A stretch of 32,577 nt of DNA from Singulisphaera sp. GP187 (GTDB lineage: Bacteria; Planctomycetota; Planctomycetia; Gemmatales; Gemmataceae). The stretch's first letter is position 1. The number at the start of each line of letters is the position of its first letter. A program made the translations under genes and the position numbers. Below the pieces are notes generated by a model, which worked only from the letters and a program-made list of their open reading frames with translations, made no database searches and was not told the DNA's origin. The stretch lies in assembly GCA_945905925.1 (NCBI GenBank), contig CAMDQN010000072.1, forward strand, positions 1 to 32,577, given 5' to 3'. This document shows positions 7,228 to 29,645 of the stretch, piece after piece.

Positions 7228-7368
7228 GGCGAGCGGCGCGGCGTAAGCCCGCCGGTGCGACTCCAAGAATCCGAGCGAACAAGCCCGTCAGAAATCGCTG
7301 CTTGCTTTCTGCGTTGTCTCTTTGGCTGGTTGGCCTCGCACCGGTGGGCTGACGCCGCGCCGCTCGCC
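7228..7368. repeat. Long inverted repeat in the nuoM-nuoN spacer
   Basis: Arms of 33 bases at 7228-7260 and 7336-7368 match at 31 of 33 positions when one is inverted, around a 75-base centre. The arms begin GGCGAGCGGCGCGGCGTAAG, resembling the element at 15070-15154, and are probably a diverged member of that family. The element fills most of the spacer. Confidence 0.85.
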
Positions 7369-7376
7369 ATACGCGA

Positions 7377-9266
7377 TTACTCGTCTTCGGCCTTCTGCTC
7401 TTTCTTGTTGCCGCCCTTCTTGGGCGGCGCTTTACCTTTGTCTTTGCCCTTCTCATCGCCGCCCTTGTTGATCGGAATGGGCGCCGGCAAGGCTGTGGGC
7501 TTCGGTTCGTCATCAACGTACACGTAGGGCACACCGCCGACGCGGGCGCGGGCCGAGTCGCCGATGATCGACAGCGTGCGCACATCCGGCTTCATCGTGT
7601 CGAGCAGAATCTGCGGGAACAGCCCGAGCAGCAAACACACGGTCGCGAGGGAGCCGATCGCGCAGAACTCGCGCCGGTTCACGCCAGGAACCGGCGCCTG
7701 AGGCAGCACTGGCTCCGGTTCCTTCGAGGCGTTAAAGAACACTCGCTGTAAAAGCGTGAACGTGTACCACGCGCTCAGGAAGATGCCGACCGCCGCCACC
7801 ACAGCCGGCCACAGTCGCGATGCTCCAGCGTTACGTGCATCGAACAAGCCCGCCATCATGAGCATTTCGCTCACGAAGTTGTTCAGCCCCGGTAGCCCGA
7901 CGCTTGCGAGGCACAGCACGAAGAATAGCAGCGCGAATCCCGGGAACCGGCCCATCAGTCCGCCGAACTTCGATATCTCGGTCGTTCGGTAGCGGTCCAC
8001 CAGGAACGCGAGCGATGCGAACATCGCGCCCGTACTCAACCCGTGGTTCACCATGTGCAGCACCGCGCCGGACAGCCCTTCCTTGTTGAACGCGAACAGC
8101 GCCAGAACGAGGAACCCGAGGTGCGAGACGGAACTGTACGCGATCACCAACTTAATGTCTTTGGAGGCGTAGGCGCAGAGCGCCGCGTAGATGATCCCGA
8201 ACGCGGCAAACCCACCGATCACGGGCAGGCCGTACAGGATCGAGGCGTCCGGCACGAGTGGCAACACGAGCCGCAAGATGCCGAACGCACCGAGTTTCGC
8301 CATGAGCGCGGAGAGCATCACCGTGACGCCGGTCGGGGCTTCGCCGTAGGCCGAGGGCAGCCACGTGTGGAACGGCCAGATCGGAACCTTCACCATGAAT
8401 CCGGCCATCAGCGCGAGGAACAACCAGAACTGCGTGGCGTGTTTTGCTGCGAGGTCTGCGCCGTCGCCCGCGAGCGCCTTCTGGTGCGCGTTCTGCAACC
8501 CCTCTTGCACGTTCACCATCAACTGCGGGATCGAGAACGTGATGGTGCCGTCCGCGTTCGGGTTCGTGAGAACGACCCCGATCACGCCGACGAGCGTGAG
8601 CAAACTCCCTGCGAGCGTGTAGAGGAAGAACTTGCGGGCCGCGTCGCGTCGCCCGGACCCCATCCCCCACTTCCCGATCAGGAAGAACGCCGGGATCAGC
8701 GTCAACTCAAAGAAGATGTAAAACAGGATCACGTCGAAGGAGAGGAACGCGCCGATGATGCCGGCTTGCAGCAGGAACAACCAGCCGAAGAACGCGCCGG
8801 GCTTTTCCTTCACGGACTCCCACGACACGAGGATGACCGGGATCAGCATGAGGCTGGCGAGCGCGACGAGCCAGACGTTCAGCCCGTCGATGCCGATGTA
8901 GAACTGCACGTTCGGCCCGGGTGTGCCGGGCCGGGTTTGCTTGTTCGAGAGACTGAACAGCGTCCAGGTGGTGCGTGCGTCGGTCGCGTCGGAACCGATG
9001 TGGGCCGCGGAATCGCCGGGCACGAACTCCGGGCGGAACTGGAGTTCTGTGGGTGCTGTAGGGTTTGCCACCTTTCCCGCGTTCCGCTCACCGATCGCCA
9101 CGACCGCGACCACGACGACGGCCGCGGTGATGCCCAGGTGAACCAGAGCGAGGATCAGCGACACGCGGCGCGCGCACCGGCCGAACACCGGCACAACCAC
9201 CGCCGACAGCAGCGGCAGCAGCACCAGCAGCAGAACGAGAACACGGATGACGGCGTAGATGGACAT
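7377..9266 (-). CDS. nuoM: NADH-quinone oxidoreductase subunit M, with extended loop and Lys-rich tail
   Basis: NuoM is an antiporter-like proton-pumping subunit of the complex I membrane arm. The 629-residue protein is longer than the roughly 500 usual. The core motif FYIFFELTLIPAFFLIGKWG carries the conserved membrane Glu, and MVKVPIWPFHTWLPSAYGEAP is characteristic. Extra length comes from a hydrophilic stretch at about 60-120, between the first two membrane helices and the conserved QFYIGIDGLN, and from a tail of about 50 residues ending in a run rich in Lys, Gly and Pro. The start is ATG at 9266, with only a weak AAGAAG before it. Both flanking spacers (nuoL-nuoM and nuoM-nuoN) hold palindromic repeats. 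Confidence 0.96.
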   Translation of the reverse strand: MSIYAVIRVLVLLLVLLPLLSAVVVPVFGRCARRVSLILALVHLGITAAVVVVAVVAIGERNAGKVANPTAPTELQFRPEFVPGDSAAHIGSDATDARTTWTLFSLSNKQTRPGTPGPNVQFYIGIDGLNVWLVALASLMLIPVILVSWESVKEKPGAFFGWLFLLQAGIIGAFLSFDVILFYIFFELTLIPAFFLIGKWGMGSGRRDAARKFFLYTLAGSLLTLVGVIGVVLTNPNADGTITFSIPQLMVNVQEGLQNAHQKALAGDGADLAAKHATQFWLFLALMAGFMVKVPIWPFHTWLPSAYGEAPTGVTVMLSALMAKLGAFGILRLVLPLVPDASILYGLPVIGGFAAFGIIYAALCAYASKDIKLVIAYSSVSHLGFLVLALFAFNKEGLSGAVLHMVNHGLSTGAMFASLAFLVDRYRTTEISKFGGLMGRFPGFALLFFVLCLASVGLPGLNNFVSEMLMMAGLFDARNAGASRLWPAVVAAVGIFLSAWYTFTLLQRVFFNASKEPEPVLPQAPVPGVNRREFCAIGSLATVCLLLGLFPQILLDTMKPDVRTLSIIGDSARARVGGVPYVYVDDEPKPTALPAPIPINKGGDEKGKDKGKAPPKKGGNKKEQKAEDE

Positions 9267-9275
9267 CTTCTTGGG

Positions 9276-9370
9276 GTCTCAAGTCCGCAGGTCTCAAGTC
9301 CCAAGTCGAAACTTCGGCACCCGATGGGGCTGTTTTTCGACTTGAGACTTGCGGACTTGCGACCTGCGAC
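9276..9370. repeat. Inverted arrays of AAGTC heptads in the nuoL-nuoM spacer
   Basis: The left arm (9276-9311) consists of units GTCTCAA, GTCCGCAG, GTCTCAA, GTCCCAA, GTCGAAA. The right arm (about 9332-9370) is the inverse series: GACTTGA, GACTTGCG, GACTTGC, GACCTGC, GAC. Spacing is 7, 8, 7, 7 in both arms, so they can fold back on each other. The same family occurs at 29561-29645. Confidence 0.85.
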
Positions 9371-9379
9371 TGTTCTCCC

Positions 9380-13742: not shown

Positions 13743-15059
13743 TTACCGCCCGGCGTAAGTCACGCCTGCGGGCAGACCCGGCGGCATCTTCTTCACGGCG
13801 CGCTTCGGGTTGGTGATCGTGCCGCGGCTGCGGGCACCCAACACACCGGCACCGAAGAACAACAGCGCGTTCACGCCGGTCAGCACGATCAGTGACCAGC
13901 CGAACTGCTTCACGAAGATCACCGCGAGCAGGTTCAGCAGTGCCAGTGGGATCATCACTTTCCACGCGAGGTTCATCAGTTGGTCGAACCGGAACCGCGG
14001 AATCGTCCATCGCACCAGTTGCGCGAAGACACACAGCCCAACCATCTTCCCACACAGGATGAGCAACTTCAGCACGGCCGCGACGATCGCATTACTGGAG
14101 ATCGACTCCAGCCCGAACAGACTCCAACCGCCGAGGAACAGCACCGCGACCATGAAGCTCGAAGCGACGAGGTGGATGTATTCCGTGAGCAGCATCAGCC
14201 CGAGTTTAAGCGAACTGTACTCGGTGTGATACCCGCCGATGAGTTCCTGCTCGGCTTCGGGCAGGTCGAATGGGAGCCGGCTGCTCTCGGCGTATGAACT
14301 GGCGAGGAACAGCAGGAGCGCGAGCGGCTGGAACAGCACGAGCCACCAGTTGTTACCGACCGCGAGGCCGATCCCGCGGAGCCAGGCGGTGACGCTTCCG
14401 AGAACCGGGTCCGGCGTGCCGCCTGGGGTCGCTTGCCACGCGATGATCTTTTCCGGGTTCAGCGAACCGACGAGGATGAACACACCGAGCACTGACAGGC
14501 CGAGTGGGATTTCGTAACTCACGATCTGCGCCGAACTCCGCAGAGAGCCGAGCAGCGAGTATTTGTTGTTCGCGCTCCAACCCGCGAGGATGGCGCCGTA
14601 TACCGCGAGGGAGCCGAGCGCGAAGATGTACAGCACACCGATATCCAAGCCCGGGGCGAGCACGAAGTTGAAGCTCTCGGCGTAAGCCTTCTGTTGCGCA
14701 TCGAATGTCGCGACGGCATCCGGTGTCGTGATCGCAACCGGTTCCGGGGCCGGGGTCGTTGAACCAAACGGCACGATTGCGAGCGCCAGGAGCGCGGTTC
14801 CGACCGCGACCGCAGGGGCGAGCAGGTAGAACACGCGGTCCACGTGATCTGGGATCACTTCTTCTTTGAGGAAGAATTTGCCACCGTCGGCGAGTGGTTG
14901 GAGCAAGCCCCCGGGGCCGACACGGTTGGGACCGACGCGGTCCTGTATCCAGGCGGAGATTTTGCGCTCGCCGAGCGTGAGGTAACCGCACACGCCGAGG
15001 ATGCCCCCAATGAGGCCGACGATGACGATCGCGGTGATGGTGATGTCGAAGTTCGGCAT
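13743..15059 (-). CDS. nuoH: NADH-quinone oxidoreductase subunit H
   Basis: NuoH is the membrane subunit that forms the quinone-entry chamber with NuoB and NuoD. ERKISAWIQDRVGPNRVGPGG (31-51) and the charged loop AESSRLPFDLPEAEQELIGGYHTEYS (257-282) are the family signatures. At 438 residues it exceeds the usual 320-350. The extra sequence is mainly a hydrophilic Pro/Thr/Ala segment at about 100-130, a stretch near 200-225 and a basic C-terminal tail. The start is ATG at 15059. The spacer to nuoG contains a GGCGTAAGCC-type inverted repeat that also provides the nuoG stop codon. Confidence 0.97.
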   Translation of the reverse strand: MPNFDITITAIVIVGLIGGILGVCGYLTLGERKISAWIQDRVGPNRVGPGGLLQPLADGGKFFLKEEVIPDHVDRVFYLLAPAVAVGTALLALAIVPFGSTTPAPEPVAITTPDAVATFDAQQKAYAESFNFVLAPGLDIGVLYIFALGSLAVYGAILAGWSANNKYSLLGSLRSSAQIVSYEIPLGLSVLGVFILVGSLNPEKIIAWQATPGGTPDPVLGSVTAWLRGIGLAVGNNWWLVLFQPLALLLFLASSYAESSRLPFDLPEAEQELIGGYHTEYSSLKLGLMLLTEYIHLVASSFMVAVLFLGGWSLFGLESISSNAIVAAVLKLLILCGKMVGLCVFAQLVRWTIPRFRFDQLMNLAWKVMIPLALLNLLAVIFVKQFGWSLIVLTGVNALLFFGAGVLGARSRGTITNPKRAVKKMPPGLPAGVTYAGR

Positions 15060-15069
15060 GATTCGTCTT

Positions 15070-15154
15070 GGCGAGCGGGGGCGTAAGCCCCCTGTTAAGT
15101 TTTACGGTGCCACTTGCGCGAAGGCTAACAGGGGGCTTACGCCCCCCGCTCACC
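15070..15154. repeat. Inverted repeat with GCGTAAGC core, overlapping the nuoG stop
   Basis: The left arm (15070-15097) and right arm (15126-15154, inverted) match almost completely. Both contain GCGGGG(G)GCGTAAGCCCC followed by CTGTTA, with one base missing on the left and one C/T difference. The right arm encodes the last residues GERGA and the TAA stop of nuoG. Single copies of the same element are at 23821-23845 and 27543-27568. Confidence 0.9.
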
Positions 15155-16843
15155 TGCAACTTCCAACGCGATGCGAGTTTCCGGGGCCAGCGCGCCGAAG
15201 AACGGCACGGCCTTCGCCATCTCTTTGCGAACCGCGCCCGGTTGCACCAACCCCTTACGGCCAAGCAGGTCGAACGCGAGTTGCAACTCGGTTCGCGCCT
15301 CCTGCGGTGGGCGCGCCGCACGGCCGAACGTCTGCACGTAGTTCGCGTGGTTCACGAACGTGCCGTCCTTCTCAAACCCAGTCGTCGCGGGGAGGATGTA
15401 CTTTGCGCTCGCGGTGACGACTGTGGGCAGCAGGTCTTGGGCGACGAGCAGCACGGGTGCCTTCCAGCCGGTCGGTACGAGCGCGTCGAGGTGCGATTTA
15501 TCTGGGTAGCCGCCGCTGAACCACATCGCCGAGAGCGATTCCTTCGCGATGCTCGCGAACGTGATCACCTCCCCCTGAAGTTGCTTTAACACGGCTTCGA
15601 CGCCGTTGCGGTTCGGTGCCTTCTCCGCGCGTATGGTGAATTTCACCGGCTCGACCGGTTCGCCTTTCGCGTTCTTCGGGTAGGTGTCGTCAGCGCCGAT
15701 CAGTGGAACCGGCCCCAACACGAGCCGCACGTCCTTCGATAGCGACTTGAAGTAGGTGCCGAGCAAGAAGGCTTCTTCAGCGGTGAGGAACGGCGACAGC
15801 ACCGCGACCACGCCCGTCGCGTTCGCCGTCACCGCGTCGGCAAACTCTTGCTTCAGTTGCGGGAGCAGCGTGCTCCACGCGATCGGCTTGAACTTGCCTT
15901 CCGACTTCGTCACCGGGCGCACGAACCGCTCGCCCGAGTTCGCGTGGTGATATCCGTAGCGGCCCTCATCGCAGATGAAGTGCCCTTGGGCTTCCGGGTT
16001 GTGCCGCGCCCGAATGCGGTACACGATGTCCTTGTTCGCATCGACGTAGGTGCTGCAACCCGTGCTGCAACGGTTACAGACACCGTCCACGGTCTTGAGA
16101 TACCAGACGCGTTGCTTGTAGAGGAAGTCTTTCGAGCCGAGCGCGCCGACGGGGCAGAGGTCAACGACGTTGCCCGCGAGTTTGTTTTCGAGCGGCCGAC
16201 CGGGGAACACGTCGATCTCTTCGTGGTGCCCGCGACCGGAGACGTATAGCTCCGCGGTGCCCGAAATCTCGCGCGTGAAACGCACGCACCGCGTACACAT
16301 GATGCAGCGGTCGGTGAACAGCGTGATCTTGCTCGACAACTGCGGCTTGTTCGGCGGCGTGTTCTTCACGTCCACCATGCGCGACTCGGAGCGCCCGTAC
16401 TTGTACGAGAAGTCTTGAAGCTTGCACTCACCGGCCTTGTCGCATACTGGACAGTCGAGCGGGTGATTGATGAGCAACCCTTCGAGCGTGTCCGCCTGCG
16501 ATTTCTTCGCGCGCTCGCCCAAGGGTGCGGTTCTGGTGTATCCAGGGTCGTAGGCCAGAGCCGGAAGAGATTTGTCGCGCTTGTCGTACTCGCCGGTGAC
16601 GATGACGGTGCCGTCCTTCACGGGCGTCTGGCACCCAGGCAGCACCCGTGGCTGCATCGTCACCTTGCCGTCTTTCAGATCGCCGACTTCGACGAGACAC
16701 ATACGGCACGATGCGACGACGGATAGCGCTTCGTGCCAGCAGTAGTGCGGCACGAACACGCCGGCGAGTTCGGCCACCTGCACGCAGTTGAGCCGCTTCG
16801 TGCCGATCTCGACCGGCTTGTCGTTCACGTAAACCGTCGGCAT
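15137..16843 (-). CDS. nuoG: NADH-quinone oxidoreductase subunit G, short form retaining the N7 motif
   Basis: NuoG holds most iron-sulfur clusters of the peripheral arm of complex I. From ATG 16843 it has 568 residues. Ligands visible: N1b at C35, C46, C49, C71; N5 at H127, C131, C134, C140; N4 at C180, C183, C186, C230; and the off-path N7 as C256-x2-C259-x3-C263-x27-C291, the spacing known from bacterial NuoG. The following molybdopterin-oxidoreductase-like region has only about 275 residues, shorter than in the roughly 700-900-residue homologues. The C-terminus GERGA and the stop codon are encoded by an intergenic repeat, so the original end may have been displaced. A lipoprotein gene separates nuoG from nuoF, which it usually follows directly. 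Confidence 0.95.
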   Translation of the reverse strand: MPTVYVNDKPVEIGTKRLNCVQVAELAGVFVPHYCWHEALSVVASCRMCLVEVGDLKDGKVTMQPRVLPGCQTPVKDGTVIVTGEYDKRDKSLPALAYDPGYTRTAPLGERAKKSQADTLEGLLINHPLDCPVCDKAGECKLQDFSYKYGRSESRMVDVKNTPPNKPQLSSKITLFTDRCIMCTRCVRFTREISGTAELYVSGRGHHEEIDVFPGRPLENKLAGNVVDLCPVGALGSKDFLYKQRVWYLKTVDGVCNRCSTGCSTYVDANKDIVYRIRARHNPEAQGHFICDEGRYGYHHANSGERFVRPVTKSEGKFKPIAWSTLLPQLKQEFADAVTANATGVVAVLSPFLTAEEAFLLGTYFKSLSKDVRLVLGPVPLIGADDTYPKNAKGEPVEPVKFTIRAEKAPNRNGVEAVLKQLQGEVITFASIAKESLSAMWFSGGYPDKSHLDALVPTGWKAPVLLVAQDLLPTVVTASAKYILPATTGFEKDGTFVNHANYVQTFGRAARPPQEARTELQLAFDLLGRKGLVQPGAVRKEMAKAVPFFGALAPETRIALEVAGERGA

Positions 16844-23804: not shown

Positions 23805-23820
23805 GGCGCGACAGTGCAAA

Positions 23821-23845
23821 CAGGGGCTTACGCCCCCCGCTCGCC
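23821..23845. repeat. Single copy of the GCGTAAGC-core element at the phosphorylase 3' end
   Basis: The sequence CAGGGGCTTACG followed by CCCCCCGCTCGCC is the inverted form of the element at 15070-15154. It lies between two convergent genes and encodes the GERGA end and TAA stop of the phosphorylase gene on the minus strand. Confidence 0.85.
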
Positions 23846-24616
23846 AACAAGACGTCCTAATAGTTCACCCATTCGCTCGACTGCGAGTTTTGCGTTCATC
23901 AGCACTTCGGCGTGATCAATCGCCGCGTCGCCGAGACCGGCGGCTTTGTTCGTGATGCACGAGATCGCGGCCACTTGCAGGCCCAATCGCGCCGCTTCTT
24001 CCGCCTCCAGCGCAGTTGACATGCCGACCGCGTCCGCGCCACACGCCGCGAGCGCGCGAATCTCCGCGGGGGTTTCGTAACTCGGACCTGTCAGCGCAGC
24101 GTACACGCCCGCGAGCAGCTCGCGCCCGGCTGCGGCTTCGTGTGAGAGTATCACTTCGATGAGTCGCTCCGAATACGGTTGTGACACAGCGGTGTCGCTC
24201 GCCAGGTTGCGCCAAGCTTTCGAGTTGAGTAGTTTCAGGTGTCCGCGAATCGCCATCAGTCCGCCTGGTTGCAGCGAAGGATGAATCCCACCCGCGGCGT
24301 TCGTCAGCACGATCCGCTTCACGCCGAGTTCGGCCGCGGTGCGAACAGTGCCGACGACGACTTCTCGCGCGTGACCTTCGTAGAAGTGGAGCCGGCCGAG
24401 GAAGAGCAGAGCAGGGACGCCGGACCACTCGCCGACCATGAGCCGGCTGCCGTGTCCGCGGACCGTGGGCGGGACCAATCCCGGGATGTCCGCGAATGCG
24501 ACCGAGGCGCGTTCGGTGAATGCGCTCGCGGTGCCCGCGAGCCCCGAACCGAGGACGACGGCCGTTCGCGGGGCCAAGGTGCGGGTTGTGCGCGCGAACG
24601 CGGCGAACGCCGACAT
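23828..24616 (-). CDS. Purine nucleoside phosphorylase
   Basis: This 262-residue enzyme of the trimeric class-I family cleaves purine nucleosides with phosphate to free base and ribose-1-phosphate (purine salvage, cytoplasm). Motifs: VVLGSGLAG (20-28) for phosphate, GRLHFYEGH (74-82), LTNAAGGI (104-111), GPSYETPAEIR (177-187), GADAVGMSTALE (193-204) and SCITNKAAG (219-227), in which N223 is the base-contacting Asn. The ATG overlaps the upstream stop as TAATG, so it is translationally coupled to the cytidylate-kinase-like gene. The last residues (VGERGA) and the stop codon lie in a repeat element. A methylthioadenosine phosphorylase role is less likely given the Asn. Confidence 0.93.
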   Translation of the reverse strand: MSAFAAFARTTRTLAPRTAVVLGSGLAGTASAFTERASVAFADIPGLVPPTVRGHGSRLMVGEWSGVPALLFLGRLHFYEGHAREVVVGTVRTAAELGVKRIVLTNAAGGIHPSLQPGGLMAIRGHLKLLNSKAWRNLASDTAVSQPYSERLIEVILSHEAAAGRELLAGVYAALTGPSYETPAEIRALAACGADAVGMSTALEAEEAARLGLQVAAISCITNKAAGLGDAAIDHAEVLMNAKLAVERMGELLGRLVGERGA

Positions 24617-25370: not shown

Positions 25371-26459
25371 TCACACGTCGTCGCGGTACTCGGATCGGGA
25401 GAACAGCCACATTCCCAGGAGCGTGATCACGATCGGGACCGCGACCAGCACCACCCATGCGGTTTCGGAGGATACGGCTTCCGTCATCGCGGGGAGCATG
25501 TGGGAGGGGTGTTTCGGCTCCGCGTGGACCGCCTCATTGTACATCAGTGAGCGCGCGTAAAAGGTCAGACTGAGTAACTTCAAACTCCCGGGCAGCGCCG
25601 CGACGACCGTCTCGAAGAAGAACACGTACACCAGTCCGACGACAACCGGGCGCCTAAAGATCGCGCCGACCAAATGGAAGAGCGACGCGAACGCGACCGT
25701 TCCCACCACGGCGGCGGGCCAGAACCGCGCCAATGCCTCGCGCCCCACGTCGCCGCCAGCGAAGCACACGGCTGCGAACCCGCCCAACCCGAACGCGACG
25801 CACCACGGGAGCGTGCCCAGGAACTTCGCCAGGTAGATGCCACTCCGCGGGATGGGGCGCGTCATGAGCCACACCAGCGACCGACTCTCTCGCTCCGTGC
25901 CGAACGCCCCGCTCGCGTACGAGAGCGTGAACAGCGGCAGCACGAACCCCATGAACACAAGCATGACGACCCACCGCGAGTACGTCATGAACGCCCAACT
26001 CTTGAGGAATGCCTCGTCCCGCATCGCGGCCTGCGGCACCTCGAAGATCAGCGACGCGAGCGAGTCCTGGGTGGGGTTGAGCGGGTTCGGAACCTCGTGC
26101 GCCCGAAGTTCGTCGCTCTTACCGTCGAGGAGCAGTGTGTAGCGGGCGTCGCGGCTCTGGCGCTGGGCCTCGCGCGCGTTCGTGGTTCGCGGGGCGTCCT
26201 TCGTTGCCGCGGTGCGTCGCGCGCGCTGGCTCGCCACGTCCCACCCGCCGCGCGCCGTGACGACCGCGACCCAGACGACCACGAGCGCGAGCAGACCGGC
26301 CGACACCCAACCCATCTGGCGCACGCGCCAGTGTCGCTGGAAGCTCTGCACCACGAGGACGCACCACGCCCTCAGGGCGGAGGGCGGAAGGCTTTTGCAA
26401 GGCGGAAGGCGGAGGGCGGAGGGCGGATCGGGAGCCGGGTTGGTGGGGTGGGTTGTCAT
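25371..26459 (-). CDS. ABC-2 type transporter permease (second pair)
   Basis: This membrane protein probably forms the channel for the ATPase encoded immediately upstream. After an N-terminal helix (about 54-68) and a long extracytoplasmic loop come several hydrophobic segments: VMLVFMGFVLPLFTLSYASGAFG, FLGTLPWCVAFGLGGFAAVCFAG, VVGTVAFASLFHLVGAIF, VVVGLVYVFFFETVVAALPG and a last one at WVVLVAVPIVITLLGMWLF. ESRSLVWLMTRPIPRSGIYLAKFLG is typical of ABC-2 permeases. The cargo is unknown. The ATG at 26459 gives 362 residues, but codons for residues of about 10-30 are period-7 repeat DNA and no ribosome site precedes that ATG. The true start may be a GTG near residue 36 (VQSFQRHW). Confidence 0.85.
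   Translation of the reverse strand: MTTHPTNPAPDPPSALRLPPCKSLPPSALRAWCVLVVQSFQRHWRVRQMGWVSAGLLALVVVWVAVVTARGGWDVASQRARRTAATKDAPRTTNAREAQRQSRDARYTLLLDGKSDELRAHEVPNPLNPTQDSLASLIFEVPQAAMRDEAFLKSWAFMTYSRWVVMLVFMGFVLPLFTLSYASGAFGTERESRSLVWLMTRPIPRSGIYLAKFLGTLPWCVAFGLGGFAAVCFAGGDVGREALARFWPAAVVGTVAFASLFHLVGAIFRRPVVVGLVYVFFFETVVAALPGSLKLLSLTFYARSLMYNEAVHAEPKHPSHMLPAMTEAVSSETAWVVLVAVPIVITLLGMWLFSRSEYRDDV
26374..26426. repeat. Period-7 array (AGGGCGG/AAGGCGG) in the 5' end of the permease frame
   Basis: AGGGCGG, AGGGCGG, AAGGCTT (26374-26394), five spacer bases, then AAGGCGG, AAGGCGG, AGGGCGG, AGGGCGG (26399-26426) form seven heptads. They are the inverse of the array at 26489-26516 and could pair with it. 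Confidence 0.9.
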
Positions 26460-26488
26460 AATGCCACGAGTGCTCTGTTGTCTTTGCT

Positions 26489-26516
26489 CCGCCTTCCGCC
26501 TTCCGCCTTCCGCCTG
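26489..26516. repeat. Period-7 array (CCGCCTT) after the ATPase stop codon
   Basis: Three perfect CCGCCTT units (26489-26509) and one CCGCCTG. The array directly abuts the stop codon of the upstream ATPase (TAA, 26517-26519) and is complementary to the array at 26399-26426. Confidence 0.92.
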
Positions 26517-27599
26517 TTATGTGCGCCCGGACCCGCCCAGCAAGTACCCGAGGATCGCGTGCGCGGACTCGTCGAGCGGTTCGAGGCGGCGCACGTCGAG
26601 CCGTTGTTCCACCGCGAGCCGTCCGAACAGTTCGAAGAATCGCTTCGGGTTGCGTGCCTTTACCACGAGCGCGGTGCCCCCGTCGGCGAGTTTGGGCGCC
26701 ACGTCCACCGCGAGCACCTCCGGCAACGCGAGAAGCAACCGTGCGACCTCGCGCGGACGGTCCACGTCGATCCGCACCGAGACCGGGTGGTCGTCGAGCA
26801 TCTCGCGGATCTGTTGGAGCGTACCCACCGCCGCGATCCGCCCACGGGCCATGATGACCACGTGGTTCGTGAGTTTCTCCAGCGCTTCGAGTTCGTGACT
26901 CGAAATGAGCAAGCACTTCCCCTGTGCCGCGAGCGCCTGGAAGAGTTCGAGTAACTCTTGCCGGCCGATTGGGTCGATGCCGGAAAGCGGTTCGTCGAGG
27001 ATCAGAAGCTCGGGGTCGTGGAGAAGTGCTTGCGCGAGCTTGATTCGCTGGCGCATTCCCTTCGAGTAGCCGCGGAGTTTGCGGTCGGCGCGCCCGGCCA
27101 TGCCGACGCGCTCCAGAACCGCTTCCGTGCGCCAGTTCGATTCTGTCCGCGTGTACCCACACAGCCGCGCCATCGTCCACACGAACCGTCGCCCGGACAG
27201 GTCTTCGTAGAACGCGTCGATGTCCGGGCAGTAACCGACGAGCCGGCGGGCGCGCCAGTCCCACGCGTCGGTTCCGCGAACGCTGACCTGACCGAGCGTC
27301 GGTTTGAGTTGGCCGTTCGCCATGCGGAGCAGCGTGGACTTGCCTGCGCCGTTCGCGCCCACCAGACCGGTGATGCCGCCCGTGAGTTCGAGCGTCACCT
27401 GATTGAGCGCGAGGACGCTCCCGTACCACTTCGAGACTTGCTCAAAGAGCAACAAGGGCGCGAGTGAACTTGGCTCGCGGGGGTGGGAAGCAGGGGGAGA
27501 CCCCTGTTGAACCAATACCTTGTCTGGCGCGCTGGTGGTTATCAGGGGGCTTACGCCCCCCGCTCGCCCAAGCACGGTTTTCAACTCATCACTCATCAC
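26517..27599 (-). CDS. ABC transporter ATP-binding protein (second pair)
   Basis: This cytoplasmic ATPase probably powers the permease encoded downstream. Counting from GTG 27599 (360 residues): Walker A GANGAGKST (81-89), GYCPDIDAF (122-130) with Asp where the Q-loop Gln is usual, signature YSKGMRQR (178-185), Walker B LLILDEPLSGIDP (198-210) and switch His in SSHELEAL (233-240). A C-terminal domain of about 100 residues follows, as in ABC-2 exporters. The first 50 residues are suspect. They are encoded by a heptad array (27584-27613) and a palindromic repeat (27543-27568), and the ABC fold begins near LLLFEQVSKWYG. A TTG near 27455 is an alternative start, but it has no clear ribosome site. 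Confidence 0.88.
   Translation of the reverse strand: MMSDELKTVLGRAGGVSPLITTSAPDKVLVQQGSPPASHPREPSSLAPLLLFEQVSKWYGSVLALNQVTLELTGGITGLVGANGAGKSTLLRMANGQLKPTLGQVSVRGTDAWDWRARRLVGYCPDIDAFYEDLSGRRFVWTMARLCGYTRTESNWRTEAVLERVGMAGRADRKLRGYSKGMRQRIKLAQALLHDPELLILDEPLSGIDPIGRQELLELFQALAAQGKCLLISSHELEALEKLTNHVVIMARGRIAAVGTLQQIREMLDDHPVSVRIDVDRPREVARLLLALPEVLAVDVAPKLADGGTALVVKARNPKRFFELFGRLAVEQRLDVRRLEPLDESAHAILGYLLGGSGRT
27543..27568. repeat. Copy of the GCGTAAGC-core element in the 5' end of the ATPase frame
   Basis: CAGGGGGCTTACG followed by CCCCCCGCTCGCC matches the element at 23821-23845 and the right arm at 15126-15154. Read on the minus strand in the ATPase frame it gives GRAGGVSPL, a different frame from the GERGA-stop reading. 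A small palindrome CAGGGG-GAGA-CCCCTG-like at 27491-27507 may be a remnant of a partner arm. Confidence 0.85.
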
Positions 27600-27614
27600 T
27601 CGTCACTCATCACT
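27584..27614. repeat. Period-7 array (ACTCATC) between permease and ATPase genes
   Basis: ACTCATC, ACTCATC, ACTCGTC, ACTCATC and a partial ACT run from 27584 to 27614. It fills the whole 14-base gap between the two genes and extends into the first codons of the ATPase frame. It contains the GTG and ATG start candidates. Confidence 0.92.
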
Positions 27615-28546
27615 TACGCAACGATCTCCACTGCCTGAACCCGCTTGCGCAGGTAGAGTACGCACGAACTGACCACGGTCCCGGTTACGAGCCACGCCTG
27701 CCAGAACTCCGGTTGCGGCTGCGGGCGGATCGTCGCGGAGTCCGCGCGCAGGCACGACAGCCCGCACAGGTACAGGTTGTTCCACAGGTCGATGAGCCGC
27801 CAGCGTCGGTCGTCGAGCGTTGCCACCAGCGAACTGGCGAGCATCGGCAGGAGGACAAACAGCCCCATCCAGATCATGGCCATCGGCACTGTTCGCCGAA
27901 CCCACACTGCCGTCGCGACGGTGATGAGGGTGAGCGTGACGGTCAGCACCAACCCGTAACAGATGATACCGAGAAGCAGTCTCCATTGCTTGAAGTAGTA
28001 GGTTTGCCAGTCGTCCAGAAGACCGGCTTCGACCCAGAGGAGGATCGCGGGGACTGTGGTCAACAGATTGATGAGAGTGCTGATCGCGAGGCACTTGCCA
28101 AGAACGTAGTGCCACCGCCCGATGGGTTTCGAGAGGTAGAACGGCAAGCTCCCGTGAGAGAAATCGCTCCCAACCAGCACCGACCCCGCGTACGCGAGGA
28201 AGATCACCAACACGTACCCCTGATACCAGATGAAGTTGCCGAAGGTGTGCGCGGTGCCGTTAAGCGCGAGCGGTTCGAAGAAACGCGTGATGTTCCGAAC
28301 GCTGACCGGGAACCCCGCGAACCGCACCGTATCGGTCGCGAGCAAGTTCGTGATCCACACTACCAGGTATTGCGCATAGAAGAAGAAGAAGAACACCAAC
28401 AGCGAGAGCGCGAGCAGTGACCACGCCTGCCAGTGTCGGAACAGCAACTTGAGCGACGCGCGGGCGAGCGCGGTCGCGGCGTAGAGCGGTCCCCGCGCGG
28501 TTCCGCGCCACGGTCGGTAGCGGAGCAGGGTGTCGGTTTGCGCCAT
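27614..28546 (-). CDS. ABC-2 type transporter permease (first pair)
   Basis: This 310-residue membrane protein should partner the ATPase encoded just upstream (28623-29555). About six hydrophobic segments are visible: WSLLALSLLVFFFFFYAQYLVVWI (43-66), YQGYVLVIFLAYAGSVLVG, KCLAISTLINLLTTVPAILLWV, LLGIICYGLVLTVTLTLITVATAVWV, MAMIWMGLFVLLPMLASSLVA and one near the C-terminus. FSHGSLPFYLSKPIGRWHYVLGK is the usual cytoplasmic loop of ABC-2 permeases. The substrate is unknown. The start is ATG at 28546; no ribosome site is visible because a heptad array begins 8 bases upstream. Confidence 0.86.
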   Translation of the reverse strand: MAQTDTLLRYRPWRGTARGPLYAATALARASLKLLFRHWQAWSLLALSLLVFFFFFYAQYLVVWITNLLATDTVRFAGFPVSVRNITRFFEPLALNGTAHTFGNFIWYQGYVLVIFLAYAGSVLVGSDFSHGSLPFYLSKPIGRWHYVLGKCLAISTLINLLTTVPAILLWVEAGLLDDWQTYYFKQWRLLLGIICYGLVLTVTLTLITVATAVWVRRTVPMAMIWMGLFVLLPMLASSLVATLDDRRWRLIDLWNNLYLCGLSCLRADSATIRPQPQPEFWQAWLVTGTVVSSCVLYLRKRVQAVEIVA

Positions 28547-29555: not shown

Positions 29556-29560
29556 GGGGA

Positions 29561-29645
29561 AGTCGCAAGTCCACAAGCCCCAAGTCACGAGTCAACAAAT
29601 CAACAAGCTTGGGACTTGCGACTTGTGGACTTGCGACTTGGGACT
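29561..29645. repeat. Inverted arrays of AAGTC heptads between argJ and the ABC genes
   Basis: The left arm reads AAGTCGC, AAGTCCAC, AAGCCCC, AAGTCAC; the right arm reads GACTTGC, GACTTGTG, GACTTGC, GACTTGG. The arms are near-perfect inverses (about 22 of 25 bases in the core), around a loop with further degenerate AAATCAAC units. The family is the same as at 9276-9370. It lies between the argJ stop and the ABC start codon. Confidence 0.9.

Follow-up and report, generated by a model that had tools for sequence, protein, structure and literature searches.

A dispersed palindromic element of the REP/REPIN type supplies the TAA stop codon of nuoG and of a purine nucleoside phosphorylase (PNP)-family gene in the 32,577-nt stretch of Singulisphaera sp. 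GP187 DNA analysed here (contig CAMDQN010000072.1, hereafter the window), and in both cases the element also encodes the C-terminal pentapeptide GERGA. The favoured explanation, given a probability of about 0.8, is that a REP/REPIN-type element inserts near gene ends without regard to frame and that selection leaves mainly the cases in which an in-frame stop results. The mobility of the element, selection as the filter and retention of the stop after loss of the palindrome are the steps that we infer in this explanation.

The element and its copies in the window

The loci concerned are as follows.

13743-15059, minus strand: nuoH (Pfam NADHdh)
15070-15154, no strand assigned: REPIN-like inverted pair between nuoG and nuoH, with arms 15077-15097 and 15126-15146 that are 100% complementary
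15070-15097, plus strand: left arm, 5-G form, 10 nt upstream of the nuoH ATG as read from the sequence
15126-15154, minus strand: right arm, 6-G form, over the nuoG 3' end, with one mismatch to the consensus
15137-16843, minus strand: nuoG, NADH-quinone oxidoreductase subunit G (Pfam Fer4_Nqo3, NADH-G_4Fe-4S_3 and Molybdopterin), with the start given by the gene caller
15137-15139, minus strand: nuoG TAA stop within the right arm (sequence and folds)
15140-15154, minus strand: GERGA tag of NuoG, 15 nt of the element read as GGT GAG CGG GGG GCG, missing in orthologues without the element
23828-24616, minus strand: PNP-family gene (Pfam PNP_UDP_1)
23820-23845, minus strand: single REP arm over the PNP gene 3' end, with GERGA codons GGC GAG CGG GGG GCG at 23831-23845 and then TAA at 23828-23830
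27543-27568, minus strand: third copy, a perfect arm that gives no stop, in the gap between genes 26517-27452 and 27614-28546

The genes nuoG and nuoH are neighbours on one strand. A preliminary description of this DNA had nuoG ending in GERGA and then TAA within the right arm of the 15070-15154 pair, and the sequence bears this out; it also had the phosphorylase gene ending in GERGA-TAA inside another copy of the element, which holds with the refinement that this copy is one arm and no pair, its stem being shorter by one C. Three matches to GGCGAGCGGGGGGCGTAAGCCCCCTG (up to three mismatches) were found in the window, versus none in 100 shuffles.

The element has the consensus GGCGAGCGGGGGGCGTAAGCCCCCTGTT and is a REP/REPIN-like palindrome. 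In the broad sense of the term, REPs are short palindromes in many dispersed copies that lie mainly outside genes and near gene 3' ends, and both properties were observed here; inverted REP doublets with a spacer, the arrangement of REPINs, were found as plus-minus pairs at 46 of 123 sites of the source genome. At its 5' end the single arm has an unpaired GGCG, which places the element outside the GTAG and CGTC super-families, and there were no Rfam matches in the window at the gathering score.

Folded as RNA, the lone 28-mer is predicted at -19.8 kcal/mol (z -3.55), with GGCG unpaired, a stem of ten pairs and a GUAA loop, so that the UAA of a lone arm is predicted to lie in the loop; the predicted fold of the single-arm PNP copy likewise puts GUAA there. 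For the full nuoG pair (-61.1 kcal/mol, z -7.47 versus shuffles) the arms are predicted to pair with one another, and the UAA would therefore sit inside the long stem and not in a loop.

Other repeats were also observed in the window. At 7228-7368 lies a larger inverted pair from a related family (GGCGAGCGGCGCGGCGTAAGCCCGCCGG), its end 8 nt beyond the stop of gene 7377-9266, and seemingly the same family gives an ASGAA* ending in the congener G010 (L256:9164-10000). A different family with GACTTGCGACTTG-like units is found at 9276-9371 and 29560-29645, and an inverted repeat of CGGAAGGCGGA-type units at 26399-26515.

Genomes and element calling

The source genome (G000) was compared with congener genomes, namely G025, G010, G008 and others (G001, G003, G004 and further ones); of the first four, G000, G025 and G010 carry the 6-G family. 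The source genome was sampled as 893 kb of stretches picked around listed element places, and the stretches of G008, G010 and G025 were likewise picked around listed copies. The 23-base core occurs at 175 places in the whole source genome (up to three mismatches; reversed control 0). Sites were drawn from the listed places, about 100 of the 175 being given individually, and about 129 of the 175 fall inside the stretches, so that degenerate copies are under-sampled. Copies with up to four mismatches were kept in G000, and ten more with five mismatches were excluded. Gene ends are the calls of a purpose-built dicodon model trained on the stretches themselves.

Abundance, placement and in-gene copies

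The 893 kb of G000 hold 173 copies at 123 sites, with none for the reversed control. The 46 sites that are single inverted pairs have 14-64 nt, mostly 30-37, between the scored cores. Not wholly within a called gene are 118 of the 173 copies (110 intergenic, 8 at a stop), while genes make up about 86% of the bases. The exact 14-base core was found in 7 of 13 genomes examined in the genus, the source genome included, and in none of 8 outside it. The broader pattern GGCGAGC..GCGTAAGC was found in 16 of 19 congeners, in several of which the counts are at or below the reversed control, and a related pattern in 3 of 149 genomes of a phylum sample (106 places in the source, which is part of the sample, and one in each of two others). 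Its dispersal lies within a single genus of the Gemmata type, probably Gemmata itself.

Across the four genomes, 96 element-bearing gaps lie between genes of the same strand. In 59 of them the distance from the upstream stop to the element is 3-15 nt, versus 22.5 under even placement within each gap, and in 12 the element sits 3-15 nt before the downstream start. This agrees with the REP placement described in the parts of PMC3733652 and PMC12306157 that deal with it. The tetranucleotide TCTT is found at one end or both in 33 of 97 intact REPINs, versus 3 of 194 ends at a control offset, which suggests that it is a target tetranucleotide. Transposition of IS200/IS605 elements uses such a target tetranucleotide, which the TCTT flank resembles.

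No convincing cognate transposase or RAYT was found beside the element at 32 Y1_Tnp loci, under half of the Y1_Tnp matches listed, where two weak, chance-like matches to the element were seen. Y1_Tnp matches occur in 16 of 19 congeners. Three longer own-genome Y1_Tnp contexts gave one element match with six mismatches, and two of the three own-genome proteins resemble NCBIfam REP_Tyr_transpos well below the cut-off (41.6 and 39.8 vs 80).

Where the element lies inside a gene, its reading frame yields peptides that recur between copies, among them QGAYAPRSP, TGGLRPPLA and ASGGRKPP in three genomes. Of 97 such copies tallied there, not one has the same-strand offset that would make the 6-G form read TAA; this is expected, because it would stop the gene. 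In the G000 copies a loop variant with TCA (GCGTCAGC) is found in 17 of 55 within genes versus 10 of 118 elsewhere (Fisher 4.7e-4). Conserved genes with in-gene copies encode the 2-oxoacid dehydrogenase E2, DNA polymerase I, MutL, a ModF-like ABC protein and others (examples from the G000, G025 and G010 stretches: L080:4087-5319, L114:3026-5620, L242:2636-4705, L069:4241-5755), and the E2 and ABC genes carry copies in both G000 and G025.

Stop codons supplied by the element

The stop codon of a gene is the element's TAA at 8 of 123 sites in G000, 2 of 63 in G025 and 5 of 25 in G010; at the 31 element sites of G008 no such ending was found. The five of G010 include one of another family (ASGAA*) and a variant tag, GERVA, and nuoG is common to G000 and G025. 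The eight G000 genes are nuoG, the PNP gene, those of a metallophosphoesterase, a DHDPS-family protein, Ham1/RdgB (GERGV), a glycosyltransferase (GEQGA) and a fatty acid desaturase, plus one small gene that matches nothing in Pfam; they are unrelated. Of the 633 genes scored in the G000 stretches, which were chosen for elements, 6 end in GERGA, more than in any other pentamer, and every gene with a GERGA-type end in the four listed sets sits on an element.

Orthologues with and without the element

GERGA-like ends were found among congeners in 3 of 19 genomes for nuoG, 1 of 19 for PNP and 1 of 18 for rdgB. The nuoG genes of G000 and G025 end in GERGA with the element, and that of G001 ends in GQRGA on a decayed copy. 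The remaining 16 of the 19 end otherwise, for example in ALETAQV* in the close relative G003; among these 16, the element begins 13 and 22 nt past the gene's own stop in G026 and G021. In 50 named nuoG loci, mostly planctomycete, one GERGA end was found, apparently that of G025 itself, and three loci end before the stop. Read by eye, G000 and G025 both lack a segment of about 25 nt that in G012 includes the native stop, so insertion plus deletion is as likely at nuoG as simple insertion. In the nuoG tree G000, G025 and G003 form one clade (99/96), within which G000 and G003 pair weakly (89/73). The tree allows a single gain followed by loss in G003, a single gain if the weak pairing is wrong, or two separate gains. 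The nuoG-site REPINs of G000 (L124) and G025 (L125) share both junctions and have unrelated spacers, which hints at spacer replacement or repeated insertion at one spot.

At the 20 PNP loci GERGA was found in G000 alone; G022 ends in LASVGA* on a different family (GGCGAGCGTCGGGGCGTAAGCCCGACG), and the other 18 loci, from 17 genomes, have neither tag nor element. Twelve orthologue loci were compared for the DHDPS-like gene: G000 ends in GERGA with a REPIN, G008 in GERPA with another variant, the TGA of G021 overlaps an element head, G004 ends in GERSA without a palindrome and with the leader of the next gene directly after, and 8 have none. We read the G004 ending as a relic, but it can also be read as a refuting case for this gene. 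The left junction at this gene, GCTCTT, is also found at the empty site of G003.

For RdgB, 18 loci comprise the GERGV ending of G000, a read-through in G008 and 16 with none. The G008 frame continues as GERGGVSPRV... through a family one base longer and into a downstream Xer-type gene, giving the open frame L200:4418-6181, in which Ham1/RdgB and an Xer-type recombinase are joined through a REPIN (Pfam Ham1, Phage_int_SAM_1, Phage_integrase). This apparent fusion may alternatively reflect a separate downstream start or an assembly error.

Orthologues with the same C-termini and no repeat, which would make the residues ancestral, were sought, and ancestry of the C-termini was rejected for nuoG, PNP and rdgB, whose element-free orthologues end otherwise. 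The earlier idea that unrelated proteins carry a C-terminal tag imposed by a REP-like repeat is supported, with eight such genes in 893 kb and orthologues without the repeat that end differently.

Reading frame at covered gene ends

The frame test covers genes whose end is met head-first by the 6-G family in G000, G025 and G010, and its control consists of copies that start 0-30 nt past a stop and lie wholly after it. Fourteen covered ends stop at the element's TAA and three read through, that is, 14 of 17 in the TAA frame versus 1/3 (binomial 4.7e-5), or 13 of 16 with nuoG counted once (1.2e-4), small numbers from a test conceived after the first cases had already been seen. Control copies of the same three genomes fall 19 in the TAA frame and 16 and 21 in the others (n = 56). 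Covered versus control ends, 14/3 vs 19/37, give a Fisher value of 6.3e-4 (13/3: 1.3e-3), or 3.3e-4 with G008 kept in the control; adding both the read-throughs and the controls of G008 gives 13/5 vs 23/46 and 0.006. The counts 13:3 and 13:5 take nuoG of G000 and G025 as one event. The contrast is not significant in G000 alone (8/3 vs 12/16, 0.16).

The control in all four genomes is 23/22/24 (n = 69); per genome (in frame, +1, +2) it is 12/8/8 in G000, which leans slightly toward the TAA frame, 4/7/8 in G025, 3/1/5 in G010 and 4/6/3 in G008. The in-frame TAA excess after stops that is predicted by phase-targeted insertion or by selection for a backup stop is absent (23/22/24; 19/16/21), and both candidates were rejected.

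The count of 14:3 leaves out G010 L256:9164-10000 (TAA stop, other family, ASGAA*), G008 L195 and L200 (other family, restored in 13:5), L105:1329-2297, whose TAG stop ends in the first base of the element, and L110:4831-7050 and L217:1710-2204, where the element is met reversed. L092 was scored as read-through, yet its copy has TCC for TAA and allows no stop in any frame; without it the count is 14:2 (Fisher 1.7e-4). Hidden read-throughs were checked by Pfam in 37 proteins (head-first in-gene cases with a called stop, and gene-end cases), nine of which were rescanned with NCBIfam and ten inspected around the site. Only L200 of G008 joins two clearly different genes. In L069 and L208 the palindrome lies between or before ABC domains; they were counted as in-gene, since their best NCBIfam hit, though below the cut-off, is to ModF with its two domains and the site is not followed by a start codon. 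L041, L054, L214:6310-8763, L217:1710-2204, L255 and L198 show no site-spanning family and were placed by reading frame alone.

Explanations for the stop supply

In the favoured explanation, frame-blind insertion filtered by selection, the element would often come to lie within about 15 nt past a stop and would sometimes cover the last few codons of a gene. A frame entering it as GGC GAG CGG GGG GCG TAA would end the gene at once, a few native residues being replaced by GERGA, and in the two remaining frames the ribosome would continue through the arm; purifying selection would remove most of these read-through cases. Once the element's TAA serves as the stop of a gene, it may persist even after loss of the palindrome. 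The element had also been proposed to insert safely at gene ends. This is only partly supported: nothing points to an element that aims for the stop frame, since copies after stops are even in frame (19/16/21), and the in-frame TAA excess at covered ends (14:3) is better read as the survival of harmless insertions. The 6-G form is open in five of six frames and has a clean stop in the sixth, so an insertion within or close to a gene should mostly give an in-frame peptide or an immediate short ending. Families with different stems have GGCGAGC...GCGTAAGC in common. It seems improbable that the element is a selfish one that has retained its stop codon as a trait reducing the cost of its own insertion.

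Another order of events is conceivable, though we lean against it: the element may first have come to lie past the stop, and a later deletion may have taken the native stop and exposed the element's TAA. The segment with the G012 stop that is missing at nuoG in G000 and G025 (about 25 nt) fits this, as does the AAGA to the right of the nuoG element, which by eye resembles G012 sequence further downstream; at the DHDPS-like gene, however, the left junction GCTCTT is present at the empty G003 site, as direct insertion predicts. A hairpin at or after the stop might instead slow termination or protect the mRNA, the overlap being kept for regulation, as has been suggested for E. coli REPs located close to stop codons. 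Placement within 15 nt of stops, as for E. coli REPs, the stable predicted fold and the adjacency of nuoG and nuoH on one strand are consistent with such a function, but its presence at any one gene varies within the genus, and we consider this unlikely. Insertion targeted to stop codons in a fixed phase, with no selective filter, would account for the concentration of elements just past stops (3-15 nt in 59 of 96 same-strand gaps) and for TCTT beside at least one end of 33 of 97 intact REPINs versus 3 of 194 control ends; it is very improbable, as the TAA frame is even among copies past a stop (19/16/21) and copies also lie within genes in several frames. Ancestral or convergent C-termini that overlap the palindrome by chance are hardly tenable: the GERSA end of the DHDPS-like gene in G004, similar and without a palindrome, speaks for them, whereas the element-free nuoG, PNP and rdgB orthologues lack the tag, the tagged genes are unrelated, and the tag DNA matches the element consensus.

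Relation to known repeats

In the passages of Di Nocera, De Gregorio and Rocco (2013, PMC3733652) that bear on this, GTAG REPs often provide TAG stops to genes, and the GTAG/CGTC REPs share with the present element that they are dispersed palindromes of 20-40 bp with an unpaired terminal tag, often in inverted dimers, close to gene 3' ends and sometimes inside ORFs. The unpaired end is GGCG here versus GTAG or CGTC in those super-families, and the stop is a TAA within the palindrome versus a terminal TAG; unlike the GTAG REPs as described there, the 6-G form adds one and the same pentapeptide whenever it is used in this phase. Rickettsia palindromic elements, as described in the same paper, are also palindromes read as peptides in ORFs, a likeness by description only. 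REPINs, in the relevant part of Bertels and Rainey (2011, PMC3116915), are likewise REP doublets arranged as inverted repeats with a spacer and predicted to form hairpins, but beside the present element no RAYT was seen in the loci examined. E. coli REPs, as cited in PMC12306157, share the placement a few nt past a stop, within 15 nt, but sit downstream of the stop, whereas here the stop is inside the REP. The enterobacterial RU-1 at the ECA3499 3' end, according to the account in PMC2759123, is a mobile repeat that seems to remove a native stop and adds residues; RU elements are of 100 bp or more, and the ECA3499 stop is attributed there to a point mutation rather than to a constant part of the element.

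Already in print, as far as these accounts go, are REPs that give TAG stops, lie near gene ends and occur in ORFs (PMC3733652) and an RU-1 that replaces a native stop (PMC2759123). New are the TAA in the hairpin loop of the arm, the recurrent pentapeptide, the element family, and the orthologue and frame evidence. No published precedent for a TAA from within the palindrome with a recurrent pentapeptide, or for the element family, was found in a search that mostly left subscription journals outside; ten literature matches listed include none on Gemmata bacteria, and the MIRU literature yielded no precedent used here.

The element provides a natural experiment in the tolerance of gene ends toward a small repeated palindrome. 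With insertion at roughly the same position, one base of element length decides between a five-residue tag and a read-through fusion. For annotation there is a warning: a C-terminal motif shared by proteins may be the signature of a repeat and no protein signal.
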